Below, one piece after another: positions 8,063 through 61,042 of a DNA stretch of 64,000 bases. Source of the DNA: Chrysoporthe austroafricana (lineage: Eukaryota; Ascomycota; Sordariomycetes; Diaporthales; Cryphonectriaceae); NCBI GenBank assembly GCA_001051155.2, contig JYIP02000006.1, positions 2,790,001-2,854,000 of the forward strand. The letters are read 5' to 3'. Numbering within the stretch: position 1 is the first letter of the stretch; the number at the start of each line of letters is the position of its first letter. Both the position numbers and the translations under genes were made by a program. Under the pieces are notes generated by a model that was given only the letters and a program-made list of their open reading frames with translations, was not told the DNA's origin and did no database searches.

Positions 8063-10187
8063 CTAAGCACCTGGAGGGGGAGGTGGCGGCGGCTGATCAC
8101 CAGGGGGTGGTGGAGGGGCGCTGTCCGACGGCGGCGGCGGCGGAGGAGGTGCCGAAGCACCTCCAGAAAACTGCTGGATCAGAGCAGTCAGGTTGTCAGC
8201 AGGAGGCCCGGGAGGAGCTCCGAGCCCAGGAGGGGCACCCATCGACGAGAATCCTGGATAGCCGCCAGGGTAGCCTCCGTAAGGCTGTGCCCCGGGAGGG
8301 GCGGCAGGAGCCTGGTGCCAAGGCGCCGCTCCTGGAGCAGCGGAGCCTCCGTAGCCCTGGTTGTTATGATGGCCACCGTAGTAGCTGTCACCTCCATGGT
8401 TGTCGTGGTTCCGCTCGCGACGGTCACGAGCCCAAGGAGCAGGACCGCCGCTGGGCCCACTGCCACGGTCACCACCATCGTGATGATCGCGATCCTGGTT
8501 GCGGTTACGCCAGGGAGCAGGACCTCCCGTAGGGCCTCGCTGCCACGGCTTCGCGTCTCCATTAGAGTGCGATCCAGGCCCGGCCTCAATGCGCGCGGGT
8601 GCCGCGCCGCCCCCAAGCTCTGCCATGAATTGCTAGGGATATTGTTAGTACCATATCTTGTCACATAAGGCTGTATCCGGCTGGAGAGGACCTACCTCGT
8701 AATCAGCATCGGCCTCTCCTCCACCAAGGCGTCCCGCCGACCGAGCACCAGGTCCGTCGTTGCGCCAGTTTTGACCTCGCTGCCTGTCAGGACAGTCGCG
8801 GGCCATGTGACCAGCATTACCGCACACACGACAAATGATGCTAGCGGTGAAATTCTGCTTCTCAGGACAGTCGTACTTGCGGTGTCCTATCTGGCCACAG
8901 TTCTGGCAGGCCTGGTTCTCGTCGTCACGGAGAGTACCGTTGAGAGCGGCCAGCTCACGCAGCTGGTTACGCTTCAACTCGTTCTGGCCTTCGGGGATCG
9001 AGGCAGCCTGCGAGAGTCAGCTTATCGATGTCCGGCGGGACGTAATAGGGATGGTACTCACTGTCTCGATCACGTTATGAATCAACTTCTTGGCCTTGTT
9101 GACCTTCTCCTCAGTGTCGGCCATGATTAGACAGTGCAGGTCTTCTTCCTGGTTACTGGCGTGAGCTGCATCGGAGCGGCCCTTGCCCTCCTTGACGGAG
9201 CCTTTGCCACGAATAGCAATCTTTGCGCCCGATTCGGTCTCCATCTTCTTCAGAGTGTTGCCACGAGGACCGATGAGTAAGCCAACTTGAAAGGAGGAGA
9301 GCTAAGTGTCAGTATCATATCAGAAGAACAGAAGTTGGGAGCACGGTTCGATCAGTGACACGAGCCTGCGGAACAATGCTGCTATTGCGCGAGATCTAAG
9401 AACTCGCCAAACTGCGGGGGATTGTGATATGGTTAGAGAGGTTAGAGGGTTAGCAATCATACTGAAGTTGATCTCCGGATAGTCATTGACTGGCACATAG
9501 ACTTTCTCCTGAGTCTTAGTGGGTCGCCTGTAGTCCTGGGGTGGGTGATAGTTAGGAATCGTCTTCATGGCCTTCTCTATCAATTTGTGTCGCTCGTCCT
9601 CTAGGCGCTTTCGGTATCGGTACTCTCGGGTATTGACACGCCGGCCATGGTTGTCGTACATTGGGGCAGGTGAGGGTGATCTGTTGGTGAGTCATGTTAG
9701 CGATAGCCTTCAGGGCACCAGGGCAATGGAGGAGTGCTTACCTGTCGCCGTCGGCAGGCACAACATCATCGATCTTGAGTTTCTGGCTGATCTCCTCAAT
9801 GCGGAGATGCAAAGTGTATGCCTCAAGTTGCTCGCTAGTCATGTTTGCGACAATTGCAGTGGGGAGGCCCATGAGTCCAGCTGCCTTGTTCTCGGAGGCA
9901 TCACCCCATCGGTTGCGCTTCTTGCGGCGTCGAGGACCATCTACAGCAGTTCCTGGGTGGGAGTCAGCATTGGGAGAGATGTCACACGATGTTGCTTTGT
10001 GGTACTGACTGGGCTCAGGGCTGCGACCGCGCTTCAGATCGCGGTCGGGGCCGTTGGAATAGCCATCAATAGGCGCAGACCTGATGCGGTCATCCTCGTC
10101 CTTGGTGTCTGCATCGCCACCGAACCTGCGAGACTTTCCCAAGGGAATGTTGTTCGAGCCGGTGATTCCTTGGTTTCTCCACGACAT
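8063..10187 (-). CDS. MSL5: Branchpoint-bridging protein (SF1/BBP)
   Basis: Five exons (9742-10187, 9463-9680, 9062-9285, 8696-9007, 8063-8632) encode about 589 aa. The N-terminus [17 protein letters not shown] is typical of the fungal family. Next come an [11 protein letters not shown]2AF-contact motif, a KH/QUA2 RNA-binding domain (about 200-296, with [16 protein letters not shown]), and two CCHC zinc knuckles at about 330-343 ([14 protein letters not shown]) and 355-368 ([14 protein letters not shown]). The tail is Pro/Gly-rich. The protein recognises the intron branch site and bridges U1 snRNP and U2AF during early spliceosome assembly in the nucleus. The intron before the last exon has a perfect TACTAAC branch site. 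Exon 1 contains a stop-free 57-nt stretch (9956-10012) bounded by GTCAGT and CCCAG that may be an optional intron. Confidence 0.92.
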
Positions 10188-11706
10188 CTTGACGCCCCTG
10201 CAAATCTGTGCAATGGGGTTTGAGAGGCGGTGATGGATGGTTTGTGGTTGGAAGTTGCAAGGTTGGAGATTTTTGGCGAACTCGATGATCAGAACAGCTT
10301 GGGCCCAGGAGGTTCTCCCCCGGGTGACTAAGCTAGACTTAGCGCTATTTTATGTACTGCGTACGGCGCGTACCACAGGCATTGCCTCACCTCTCCACTG
10401 GGGCGAGCCAGGAAAACCTACAGGGGTATACAACACCATTGCCCTGAGTCGTTCGATAATCTCCGAAGGAGATGTTTCGCATCACTTTAACCCTTTTAAT
10501 GCCTTAGCATCTGAAATTCTAACAACACTTCGAGGTTGAACAAAGCTCCCAAGCCCAGAAAAGTTGATGTCTACATGTACACCCGAGCTCGTCCATCTAG
10601 CAGACGTCATACCTGGCTCTCTAGAAACCAGCTAAAACCATTCCAGGTGAGTTGTCAGGAGACTATCTACCCCTAGGAAGAGAAAATTCGATCAACAACT
10701 GTAGTTCCTCAAGAGTTTATTGAGATACTGGATATCTATGACTTTTCGTCTCCCTAGTGTACCTCAGGCTTATGGGTTTGTATTTTTATTCACATCAATC
10801 TCATGACCCTTCCAAACCAAGTCAAAAGGAGCACCTGTGTCACCGGGCCCAAGGAGCACACCTGTATGCAGTCCTACTGGCTGGGCAGAAACACGGGTTG
10901 AGCACCTGTAAGAAGTCCTCCAAAAGACCCGCCATCCTCTAAGGCCATCTGCCAGGGTTACTCGTCCACTGCTTCTTCACTGTCCGGAAGCATATGCTGC
11001 GTGATCATCCATCCATGGCCGCTGACCTCGTCAGCACCGTCTCTAGCGCTATCGCAGTGGCTAAGGTTGGCTTCAGAGTGAGATAAAAGGCTGCAGATCT
11101 ATGGAGGCTATGGGACTGCGTGAAAGAGGTGCCCGATGCTGTACGCGCCTCCATTCTCATTCCAATCCCAGGAGAGCTGCTAGTTCTGGTCTGAATTCCC
11201 TAGCGTGCTTGCTTCCATGTAAGAGTCGACGGGGTGAACCTCCCTCCTCCACGCAGGGCTTACCACCAGAATTTGGGAGGAGGAAGTGGACGATGCAAAT
11301 TCGACTGGCCTCCTGTTGTGGGATACTGTCGAGAGCTTAGTCTGGGTAGGGAGAACAAGGAAAGTCAGAACTGAGATCTATTGACAGCTAGCAGTAATTT
11401 AAACTCCTGTGGTTTGGTGGTGTCATCTCCTTAGCCCATCTCCTTAGGCTAGTGTTTGAAATTATGCTGGATTGTGTCCTGTCTTATGTGATGTGGCCGC
11501 ATCAGCATTCAAGTCTCGGGTTGGCAAAGCCGGTTGGGGCGTTATACGTCTTATTTCTACTACCTACTAATAATTTTCAGCGATCCGCGCCTCGTTCTAA
11601 CCCGAATTTAAAGGGTCTTTCAGATTAGAGAGTTTTACTGCTGTAACCCTGCCGAACAGAGCCGTGTTTTTGGCGCCGTACAATTTTCGCCAGCACACAG
11701 TCGCTC
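10188..11706. other. Intergenic, 1.5 kb
   Basis: 5' flank of BBP and 3' flank of the GST gene. Several short ORFs are present but none shows a recognisable domain or credible splice structure. Confidence 0.55.
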
Positions 11707-13896: not shown

Positions 13897-14832
13897 TCAA
13901 ATTTCACGGTTCAATAAGCTAAGTCCCTCTTTAAAGCCGCTGTCCCGTGCCAAGTCAATAGCGTTTTGTCCAATAGTATTCTCTACAAGTGGATCAGCTC
14001 CCCTTTCCAACAGGAACTTGATATGCTCCGTCTTCCTATCTCGCACTGCAACATGCAAGGCTGTCTCGAAGCCCATGCCGCGATTTCCGTGGAAAAATTC
14101 GTCATCCCACTCCCATCGCAACATATTGATGGATACGCCCGCCTCGTCCAGCAGATAGGCCATGGCTTCCATATGCCGCCCCTCTTTATCACCATCTTGC
14201 CTGGCGGATTCATGGAGCGCATTCAAATGGCGAAACTCGGCGCCATGTGCACGAAAGAGCCTGAGGACGCTTACGGGAGAGAACTTGCCAGCCTGACTCG
14301 CCATATGGTTATTTCGGCCCGCGGACCGAATCATGGGATCCGCCCCGTGTTCCATTAACCACCAGACGTGTTCTTCGCTGTAGAGGAAACAGCTATCTTG
14401 ACTGTTAGTCGAGTGTCACTCAGCCACATCTGCGACCACATACAGATAAAGTAAGATTACAACTCACTACAATATAGGCAATGTATTGCCACCTCCGACA
14501 GATCTGTTAATATCCCATCCGCTCCGCAGAAGCAGCTCCGCCACGTCCCAATGCTTGTACCACACAGCGCTGCGGACGGCTTGGGAAGAGGGGACACAGC
14601 CTCGCTGCTTGAGCAGATAGGCCACAATCTCGATATGTCCCGCCCTGGCCGCTATATTAAAGGTCCATTCAAGAACGGACTCCTTTTCAAAACGTGAGAT
14701 TCGGTCTTAGTTTACGTTATCAAGTTATTACAGCTCGCTCTATAGAGATGCCAAGTCTCCAGCCGCCACTATTACTTCAATCCCTTCTCGCACGAGGGTG
14801 AGCTTATCGGTGGAAGGCGCATCGGGAGCCAT
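13897..14832 (-). pseudogene. Ankyrin-repeat protein gene with one frameshift
   Basis: Ankyrin repeats are clear in 13897-14392 (ETALHVAVRDRKTEHIKFLLERGADPLVENTIGQNAIDLAR) and in 14471-14682 (AARAGHIEIVAYLLKQRG, DVAELLLRSGWDIN). The likely first exon is 14732-14832, starting MAPDAPSTDK and ending in AAGDLASL, a typical ankyrin lead-in. That exon runs into TAG at 14740-14742. The next splice pair (donor 14731, acceptor 14683, 49 nt) is then out of phase by one base. A single missing base near the stop explains both defects, so this is either a recent frameshift or a sequencing error. The intron between the two repeat exons has CTAAC 13 nt before an ATAG acceptor. Function unknown; ankyrin proteins bind other proteins. 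Confidence 0.6.
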
Positions 14833-16028: not shown

Positions 16029-16035
16029 AGCTACG

Positions 16036-16046
16036 TAGCTCAGGGG
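16036..16046 (+). promoter_or_regulatory. Pol III A box of the tRNA gene
   Basis: TAGCTCAGGGG matches the A-box consensus TRGYNNARNNG at every specified position. It lies entirely in the first tRNA exon, upstream of the inserted intron. Confidence 0.75.
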
Positions 16047-16050
16047 AAGA

Positions 16051-16107
16051 GTGAGTCGACTTTTCTTGTCTGAAAGTAGCCACCTCAACTTCTAACAAAC
16101 TTCATAG
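16051..16107 (+). other. Spliceosomal-type intron inside a tRNA gene
   Basis: 57 nt starting GTGAGT, with CTAAC (branch adenosine at about 16095) 12 nt before the terminal TAG. Length, donor, branch site and acceptor equal those of the protein-coding introns in this window. It lies between the second and third bases of the 3' D-stem strand, not at the canonical 37/38 site. It contains no internal Pol III terminator: the longest T-run is four. Confidence 0.8.
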
Positions 16108-16135
16108 GCGCCGGGCTCATAACCCGGAGGACGTT

Positions 16136-16146
16136 GGATCGAAACC
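16136..16146 (+). promoter_or_regulatory. Pol III B box of the tRNA gene
   Basis: GGATCGAAACC corresponds to the B box GGTTCGANNCC with the A substitution typical of initiator tRNA T loops. The intron lengthens the A-to-B distance by 57 nt, still within what intron-bearing tRNA genes tolerate. Confidence 0.75.
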
Positions 16147-16166
16147 AATCGTAGCTATCACACAGC

Positions 16167-16173
16167 TTTTTTT
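16167..16173 (+). terminator. Pol III terminator (T7)
   Basis: A run of seven T residues begins 10 nt after the discriminator base, the expected Pol III stop, with a second T5 run close behind. Confidence 0.75.
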
Positions 16174-16921: not shown

Positions 16922-17860
16922 CTAAATTTTGGTAGCCAAGATGACCACGACCGGAAACTCGAGCTTGACCTCATCCCCGCCGAGAGCCTGCTCTAGCTCG
17001 TCCCAGAGCTCCTGCAGCTCTGATTCCGGAATGCGCGAAACTAGTGTTGCGAGATGGGACTTGAGCCACACGATGTCATGAAAAGCGGTCCAGCCGTCGT
17101 CGTGGTCGATCCATACCTTTTCCTCCTCCTCTCCGACCCTACTCTCGCTAGTCCGGCCGTCCCCGCTCAGCATCCACTGGTGAAGACTCCCTGGCGAGTT
17201 GATATAAACCCGCTTGACGTCCCTCCACGTATCTTCCGGCAGCGCAAGAGGCTCATAGGCCGCATTCGACAAGCTGTACGCACGATCAAACATGTCTCCC
17301 GTCGCCCTCCTCGCAAACTCGTGCCAGATCGCCTCCCACAGTGCCTCGGCGCGTTCGTTGCCCCTGATGCGCGGGACGGCGTAGAAGCTCATCACTAGAG
17401 TCCCGCCGGGCTTGACCTGCCGGCCAAATTCCTGGACCGCCGCGCCGGGGTCCACGAAATGCATCATCTGGCACGCGGCGACAAGGTCGACCGTCCCGTC
17501 TTCCACGCTGCTCTGTTCCGCGCGCTCCCGGAGGAAGGTAAATTTGCGCTCTGGCAGACGAGGCTCCTCAGTCAGGAGTCTCCTCGCGAGCGCAGTGTAT
17601 CCGTCGTTTGGGTCCGACACGACCACCCTGTCGAAATGCGGGGCCAACCTCCTGGAGACGACGCCGCATCCGGCACCGACGTCGTGCGCTGTTGACCAGG
17701 CCACGTCAGGTTTGTGGCCGTGATAATTGTGGATGAGAGAGAAGAAGGATGCCGGATAGACGGGGCGGTAGGCGATATACTGAGACCAGTCCACCCCTTG
17801 GTCAGGAGCAAAGCCGAGCTCTCGGGGCCCTGAAGCGGGGATCCCGGTGGTAGTGGACAT
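16922..17860 (-). CDS. SAM-dependent methyltransferase (class I, trans-aconitate-methyltransferase-like)
   Basis: Intronless, 312 aa. The class I Rossmann methyltransferase order is visible: motif I HDVGAGCGVVSRRLAPHF (residues about 59-76), an acidic residue after strand 2 (VVVSDPNDGY), the EDGTVDLVAACQMMHFVD segment (motif II/III), and KPGGTLVMSFYAVP. The N-terminal WSQYIAYRPVYPASFFSLI is typical of the fungal branch that also aligns with trans-aconitate 3-methyltransferase. It transfers a methyl group from SAM to a small acceptor that I cannot name. No signal peptide or membrane segment, so it is probably cytosolic. It stands alone with no neighbouring pathway genes. Confidence 0.85.
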   Translation of the reverse strand: MSTTTGIPASGPRELGFAPDQGVDWSQYIAYRPVYPASFFSLIHNYHGHKPDVAWSTAHDVGAGCGVVSRRLAPHFDRVVVSDPNDGYTALARRLLTEEPRLPERKFTFLRERAEQSSVEDGTVDLVAACQMMHFVDPGAAVQEFGRQVKPGGTLVMSFYAVPRIRGNERAEALWEAIWHEFARRATGDMFDRAYSLSNAAYEPLALPEDTWRDVKRVYINSPGSLHQWMLSGDGRTSESRVGEEEEKVWIDHDDGWTAFHDIVWLKSHLATLVSRIPESELQELWDELEQALGGDEVKLEFPVVVILATKI

Positions 17861-18871
17861 TGCTTAGACGTCGAGTATGTCAAATTAGAGATAATATAGA
17901 ATTGTAGAAGCGGCAGTACCAAAGAACTCGGCGCATTCATTCAAGTATTCAATCCAGACAAGGGGTGATGGCCAAGACGAGGGACTACGAGGTTAGGCGA
18001 CTTATGTTCCTGTAGCTGCATCATAGCAGGACTTCGGGGGCGCCTAGGCGCCACCTTAACACCTAGCTCTAGTGGCTGGCCAGGGCCTGGTCCCACTAAA
18101 TATGCCTGAACAACGACAGCCAGTTTGTGCTGTGTTGCGTGGGTTATAACATAATAGCTAATACGAGCGATTTCACATCATTGTTTGAAGGCGAATGATT
18201 AAGTAATAGCTATGTACGGAACGCTCTTATAATCTTAGAGTCTCAGAGGGAGAATGCATAGAAACAGCAGGGTTCTCGAACTTGTTGCAAGGTTGCGACG
18301 CCGGCGATGTTGAAAGGGCACGATGAAGTGCCCAACAAAAGTGCCGACGGAGAGCTTTAAGTTTAGTGGGAAGCAGGGCTTACACCATATAGCGGTAGGC
18401 AGCCGGCCGCCTGGCCAGGCCATGCGTGACTTCTTATATATTGCACAGAAAGGAAATCTGATGGAAGTAGCGTCTCGCGCTTTCCACTCGGTCACTCAAA
18501 TATCTCCTGGGCTGGAACGGAGCCCGCATTTGAACCTTTCTACACGATCCCTATCGACTACCAAAACCCACCAAGAGGAGTAATATTCCAATCCCAGTGC
18601 GCCTCCATGATAGCTGGTCATCAACCACTTCGGTCTACATCGTACGTGTCCTGCGGCCATGTGAATGTTCCTACGTGTGATGTCCATCTAGCAATATTCA
18701 GCTGACACCTACACACAGCCGGCTCTAGAACGAGAAAAGGGGACCAGGCTCGAGCCCGAAAGCCTGGGAAGACCACTTGTCGACTAAACCCCCTCCTCGT
18801 CAGCTAGATAGCGGCCGTATCGGACGACCTGAGTCACGACTTCTTGGGCCAATTCAGCACACTGGTCCGCA
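17861..18871. other. Intergenic, 1 kb
   Basis: 5' flank of the methyltransferase gene. Short ORFs only, no recognisable feature. Confidence 0.5.
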
Positions 18872-60878: not shown

Positions 60879-60950
<72 letters not shown>

Positions 60951-61006
60951 CCCTCTCCCCCTCCCCCCCCTTCTTCCCTCCACCCCTCCCTNGGGGGGGG
61001 GGTGGT

Positions 61007-61042
<36 letters not shown>

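Follow-up and report, generated by a model that had tools for sequence, protein, structure and literature searches.

The window analysed here is a stretch of 64,000 nt (C19:2790001-2854000) in a genome of 48.15 Mb and 22 contigs, and it carries on its plus strand, at 16029-16157, a gene for an initiator tRNA (tRNA-iMet) that is interrupted in the D arm by an insert of spliceosomal type. The first exon (16029-16050) comprises the 5′ acceptor strand, positions 8-9, the 5′ D stem, the D loop and the first two bases of the 3′ D-stem strand; the second (16108-16157) supplies the remaining D stem, the anticodon arm with the anticodon CAT at 16118-16120, the T arm with its ATCGAAA loop, the 3′ acceptor strand and A73. 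Between them, at tRNA positions 23/24 (the numbering of D-arm inserts is our own throughout), lie the 57 nt of the insert (16051-16107), which starts with GTGAGT, contains a branch-point-like CTAAC at 16092-16096 whose A (16095) is 12 nt from the last base, and ends with TAG, at exactly the coordinates given by the initial annotation. By the A-box and B-box consensus, TAGCTCAGGGG (16036-16046), entirely within exon 1, is A box-like and GGATCGAAACC (16136-16146) is B box-like; with the Pol III terminator-like run of seven T at 16167-16173, the promoter and terminator elements previously described as intact are present. The hallmarks of an initiator gene are all found in the sequence and its ARAGORN fold, namely A1-U72, the ATCGAAA T loop, the CAT anticodon, a GGG/CCC base of the anticodon stem, the A and B boxes and the T run.

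ARAGORN calls a 72-nt tRNA-Met(CAT) only when 16051-16107 are excised. The unspliced gene receives no call, or a false Lys call when introns are allowed, and scores 26.6 bits with the Rfam tRNA model, under the cut-off of 29. Exact removal of the insert leaves a flawless cloverleaf, and the excised sequence is identical, in 72/72 letters (50/50 for exon 2), to an intronless iMet gene at C12:1392974-1393045. This identity fixes the intron boundaries, with a one-G ambiguity at the join, where the exon matches to the C12 copy overlap by one base. A third iMet gene, at C17:4160503-4160574, is likewise intronless and differs at 3/72 positions. When the flanks of the three genes are compared by BLAST, they are alike over no more than 4 bases on the upstream side and some 25 T-rich ones on the downstream side. 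The intron is present in the window copy and absent from the C12 and C17 copies. As these two other iMet genes lack it and one of them has the same mature sequence, the earlier suggestion of a possible need for the spliceosome in initiator supply is weakened, and the window copy could be silent or decaying. The intron may have originated by reverse splicing. A genome search returned no copy of it other than itself, so that, at the sensitivity of this search, a recently spreading introner is not seen.

Neither Rfam at gathering score nor ARAGORN in its bacterial setting gave any match in the whole window, and the Rfam families HPnc0260, SNORD5, mir-35 and RUF1, which matched weakly in the vicinity of the gene, were put down to chance. 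No ORF of at least 120 aa overlaps the gene, whose neighbours are an ankyrin-repeat ORF (13897-14415, minus strand) and a methyltransferase ORF (16922-17863, minus strand). A TTTT run inside the intron, at 16061-16064, is a possible weak Pol III terminator; it need not stop the polymerase, because six other tRNA candidates of the genome also have TTTT inside the gene body. The mitochondrial uL4 protein encoded elsewhere in the window shares 90% identity with its Cryphonectria parasitica counterpart, and the named matches that follow in the homologue search are from Diaporthe and Cytospora, which indicates a Cryphonectriaceae-like ascomycete as the source. Two long poly-T runs (60882-60950 and 61009-61042) flank an N at 60992, perhaps an assembly join. 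A gene with an SF1 helix-hairpin domain and zinc knuckles (splicing factor 1 / branch-point binding protein) occupies 8063-10349 on the minus strand and holds three of the eight motif-selected protein-gene introns of the window described below, probably by coincidence.

Survey of the tRNA genes

tRNA genes were collected with a finder based on structure (acceptor, A-box start and T arm) and free of splice motifs. It required at least 4/5 pairs in the T arm, at least 6/7 pairs in the acceptor, T[AG]G[CT]..[AG] at positions 8-14 and no more than 400 nt between, and it detects inserts between about positions 14 and 49, short ones (under about 30 nt) being covered in the anticodon loop. The input consisted of RF00005 loci (63 of 1,207 first-look candidates were scored, giving 60 matches), loci with a T-arm-plus-terminator pattern and small extra stretches. 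Leu(CAA) and Arg(CCT) were first spotted by eye and later returned by the finder, and both intron-bearing Leu(CAG) genes came from places fetched for Leu-like 3′ ends. The T-arm pattern places were read apart from those at C17:1487569, C20:1908144, C21:177653, C21:1351785, C21:2670641, C22:733256 and C22:1830824; in one pattern list 9 of the 31 distinct places were read, many of the other 22 being surely chance (control, 12/40 rows). Another list held 11 distinct places (14 rows; control, 7), and the one that was read is an uninterrupted tRNA-Ser(AGA).

The survey yielded 84 distinct tRNA candidates (69 in a stricter first run; 80 distinct gene strings). A TTTT run lies within 25 nt of the end in only 74 of them, so a few may not be genes, and Phe and His tRNAs are absent from this set. 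A loose automatic cloverleaf test was passed by 80/84 candidates, the four misfits being the genes for Tyr and Arg and the two for Leu(CAG) that are discussed below; the unspliced iMet and Leu(CAA) genes also fitted this test, with 4/5 anticodon-stem pairs and implausible loop introns of 47 and 82 nt. Twelve candidates are longer than 105 nt or have no 3-pair D stem; six of them contain a D-arm insert, and the remainder, as judged by eye, a long anticodon-loop intron.

Six D-arm inserts with splice signals

The architecture of the window gene, read from the outset as that of a Pol III-type tRNA gene harbouring an mRNA-type intron, recurs in five further tRNA genes of the same genome. In addition to iMet, inserts are found in Leu(CAA) (C1:4895149-4895206; 58 nt, positions 19/20), two Leu(CAG) genes (C9:109046-109104, 59 nt, and C2:248480-248533, 54 nt, both at 19/20), Tyr(GTA) (C22:305197-305258, minus strand; 62 nt, 16/17) and Arg(CCT) (C16:442989-443065; 77 nt, 20/21). 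All six start with GTNNGY (GTGAGT, GTACGT, GTAAGT, GTAAGC, GTCAGT and GTCAGT), contain CTAAC and end with AG (TAG, CAG, TAG, CAG, CAG and AAG). The branch A lies 12-14 nt from the intron end in five of them; in Arg(CCT), whose intron ends AAAAG, the last CTAAC lies 30 nt upstream, which is atypical and outside the 9-16 nt seen in the window. The latter range comes from eight distinct ORF-bridging introns of window protein genes, 54-88 nt long. The six tRNA introns match them in length, and in branch distance in five of six cases; because the eight were chosen by motif from 957 ORF-bridging GT..AG candidates, the comparison is partly circular and carries information only on length, on distance and on the bridging of frames. 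When the inserts were shuffled (mononucleotide, ends fixed), the arrangement GTNNG..CTRAY (9-31 nt)..AG was reached in 1/20,000 shuffles for iMet and in 0/20,000 for each of the other five.

Exact excision restores the tRNA structure in all six genes. Uninterrupted paralogues fix the boundaries for iMet (the C12 copy), Tyr (C17:3566795 and C16:625357) and Leu(CAG) (C21:749956), whereas the boundary of Leu(CAA) was set by the Leu(CAG) D arm and that of Arg(CCT) only by a matching Arg(CCG) D arm. ARAGORN called the spliced Leu(CAA) gene Val(CAC), with the anticodon-loop intron slid, and CAA is our own reading. The Leu, Tyr and Arg genes of the set carry a second intron of 7-34 nt in the anticodon loop. 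In Tyr, the D-arm intron interrupts the A box after position 16, and the interrupted copy differs from its paralogues by two substitutions, one of which breaks the acceptor pair 3-70.

The D-arm inserts could in principle be due to chance, or to random insertion into tRNA copies that are redundant and are pseudogenes. Eukaryotic D- and T-arm inserts have mostly been supposed to mark pseudogenes (PMC4090602), and the uninterrupted paralogues of iMet, Tyr and Leu(CAG), as well as the substitutions in the Tyr copy, would be expected under such a reading. It is nevertheless unlikely, since it would have to accommodate splice signals in 6/6 inserts at shuffle frequencies of no more than 1/20,000 and the preservation of the exons, complete in iMet and reaching 81/82 identical positions between the mature tRNAs of the two intron-bearing Leu(CAG) genes. 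The interiors of these two introns cannot be aligned (213/1000 shuffles were as good), but their CTAAC..AG ends agree at 14/16 positions, with GTAAG[TC] and CTAACAA.GTCTC.AG kept. Compared with the intronless Leu(CAG) gene on C21, the two copies show 4 and 3 differences, including a double change in the T stem that keeps the pair (by eye). Mature tRNA and splice signals kept while interiors drift is a sign of selection and, as judged from these alignments, the behaviour of functional spliceosomal introns. The pseudogene reading also leaves aside the insert position common to three Leu genes, one of them with a different anticodon, which suggests an old intron inherited through duplication. The Tyr and Arg interiors, one of 15 intron pairs compared, are weakly alike (13/1000 shuffles as good).

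Gene number bears on the same question. In the pattern lists, T arms and acceptors of the Leu(CAA) and Arg(CCT) types belong to one full gene each, with an Arg-kind orphan 3′ half at C16:453736, and neither these lists nor DNA searches of limited sensitivity gave a second locus for either tRNA, which does not fit insertion into redundant copies. The lack of further Leu(CAA) copies is weak evidence, because the DNA search also skipped the related Leu(CAG) genes. As that search missed near relatives of the gene, the survey lacks some isotypes and the codons of both tRNAs could be read by others through wobble, these two genes may be essential but need not be. Taken singly, any of the six loci could be silent; it is the set that carries the case.

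Proposed transcription and removal of the introns

Taken together, the six genes suggest that at least six Pol III-type tRNA genes of the genome contain U2-type spliceosomal introns, that the iMet insert is one of these introns, and that it is removed by the spliceosome; from the sequence we put the probability of this reading at about 0.8. We infer that Pol III would transcribe the gene through the A box, the intron and the B box to the T run, and that the spliceosome would then, in the nucleus, take out the short intron, which it would recognise by the 5′ splice site, the branch site (CTAAC) and the 3′ AG. Once the D-arm intron is out, the cloverleaf could form, and the anticodon-loop intron of Leu, Tyr and Arg precursors would then be cut by the tRNA endonuclease.

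Since the spliceosome normally acts on Pol II transcripts and the assignment to Pol III is made from sequence elements, the introns might be spliceosomal by origin in loci that now lie within Pol II transcripts, such as long non-coding RNAs, and supply no tRNA. The six loci have, however, kept T runs and elements resembling the A box and the B box (the intron splits the A box of Tyr), and their mature sequences are nearly unchanged, which makes this reading improbable as well.

Other classes of intron were also considered. The canonical tRNA intron sits at 37/38, whereas the inserts lie in the D arm at 23/24, 19/20 (three genes), 16/17 and 20/21; group I or II introns were rejected, as no Rfam family reached gathering score in the window and 54-77 nt would be too short for them. 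A further reading holds that the inserts are true introns but are cut by the tRNA splicing endonuclease and joined by the ligase, like the ectopic D-arm introns of red algae, nucleomorphs and Archaea. The motif of many such introns, the bulge-helix-bulge, has two 3-nt bulges around a 4-bp helix. In all six genes this central helix is incomplete (1-3 of 4 pairs), the outer helix has 0-1 of 3 pairs, and the GTNNGY, CTAAC and AG common to the six would be left unexplained. D-arm introns do exist elsewhere, many of them with a bulge-helix-bulge (PMC3978253, PMC4090602), and the Leu, Tyr and Arg genes themselves hold endonuclease-type introns in the anticodon loop, yet removal of the D-arm inserts by the endonuclease appears very improbable.

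For the genes with two introns, removal by the spliceosome has a further consequence. The eukaryotic endonuclease is considered to take the body of the tRNA as the reference for its measurement, and Sen54 is reported to touch the D arm (PMC4090602). The spliceosome would for this reason be expected to act first, and the order could be obligatory because the endonuclease would need an intact tRNA body from which to measure. The chances seem even that translation in this fungus depends directly on the spliceosome, through the only Leu(CAA) and Arg(CCT) genes found, through two Leu(CAG) genes out of the three recovered and through a share of the Tyr and initiator tRNAs, and that the Leu, Tyr and Arg precursors pass through two unrelated machineries in an obligatory order, the spliceosome first.

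Relation to known introns and to orphan tRNA 3′ halves

Introns of mRNA type are known from other genes for non-coding RNA. The U6 snRNA gene of fission yeast, likewise short and transcribed by Pol III, has such an intron (PMC10484740). U6 lies in the catalytic core of the spliceosome, and reverse splicing close to the catalytic bases is thought to have given rise to its intron (PMC10484740), whereas tRNAs have no such contact. In the present genome the best U6 match, 103 nt over the full model, is intronless. Short ectopic introns removed by the spliceosome, including one of 57 bp, occur in the rDNA of lichen fungi (PMC8527467), and spliceosomal removal from Pol I rRNA transcripts is described both in lichens and in engineered yeast (PMC8527467); those introns belong to Pol I rRNA, the present ones to Pol III-type tRNA genes. 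Cyanidioschyzon, the Guillardia nucleomorph and Archaea also have tRNA genes whose introns, sometimes several in one gene, lie away from the anticodon loop; those introns with a defined motif have a bulge-helix-bulge and are cut by the endonuclease, and many nucleomorph ones are without a defined motif (PMC3978253, PMC4090602). In the text available, a spliceosomal signal is not mentioned for ectopic tRNA introns, and the string 'spliceosom' occurs zero times in that of PMC4090602. The canonical introns of eukaryotic tRNAs have their like in the anticodon loops of the present Leu, Tyr and Arg genes and differ from the D-arm inserts in position, in having no GT-AG or branch signals and in the enzyme that removes them.

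The initial annotation knew of no described tRNA case, and the literature searched, mostly outside subscription papers and preprints and in part seen as extracts, brought none. Exact-pattern scans of viral and genome contig collections returned zero interrupted Leu tRNA genes; because these collections are non-fungal, the result is uninformative on fungi. As far as the searches went, tRNA is a new class of host gene for ectopic spliceosomal introns, rRNA and U6 being already known. If the spliceosomal reading is true, it breaks the rule that introns in nuclear tRNAs are the business of the tRNA endonuclease and that tRNAs mature without the spliceosome; spliceosomal introns could then enter and persist in tRNA genes, and the six genes, all interrupted in the D arm at four positions, would offer a natural setting for testing how short structured RNAs gain introns. 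The non-canonical intron search of tRNAscan-SE 2.0 is described for archaeal tRNAs in the text available (PMC8450103), and such fungal genes would therefore be easily missed. Because the window copy scores below the Rfam cut-off, tRNA finders are liable to miss such genes, and 'missing' or 'pseudo' tRNAs of other fungi may be alike.

A separate observation concerns orphan tRNA 3′ halves (Ala, Gly and Arg). About 3-11 kb upstream of such a half, and on its strand, stands an intact tRNA gene of the corresponding kind. Six intact/orphan pairs were recorded, at C16:4052526/4049741, C17:4276004/4272175, C12:4214028/4221156, C12:4655264/4663104, C19:1227521/1231479 and C16:443104/453736 (loci L100, L104, L106, L109, L119 and L123), and a further one, C21:2651697/2670641, about 19 kb apart, is known from listing alone. 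The sequence adjoining the orphan halves is alike between some loci (by eye). By analogy with bacterial integrases, this looks like the work of elements that insert into tRNA genes, restoring the 3′ half and displacing the old one. At C3:74560-77935 (minus strand; L082-L085), ARAGORN finds one tRNA-Leu(AAG) gene, ending at C3:77906, and more Leu(AAG)-like T arms lie on the same strand at 77357, 77495 and 74560, which are perhaps orphan 3′ halves as well.
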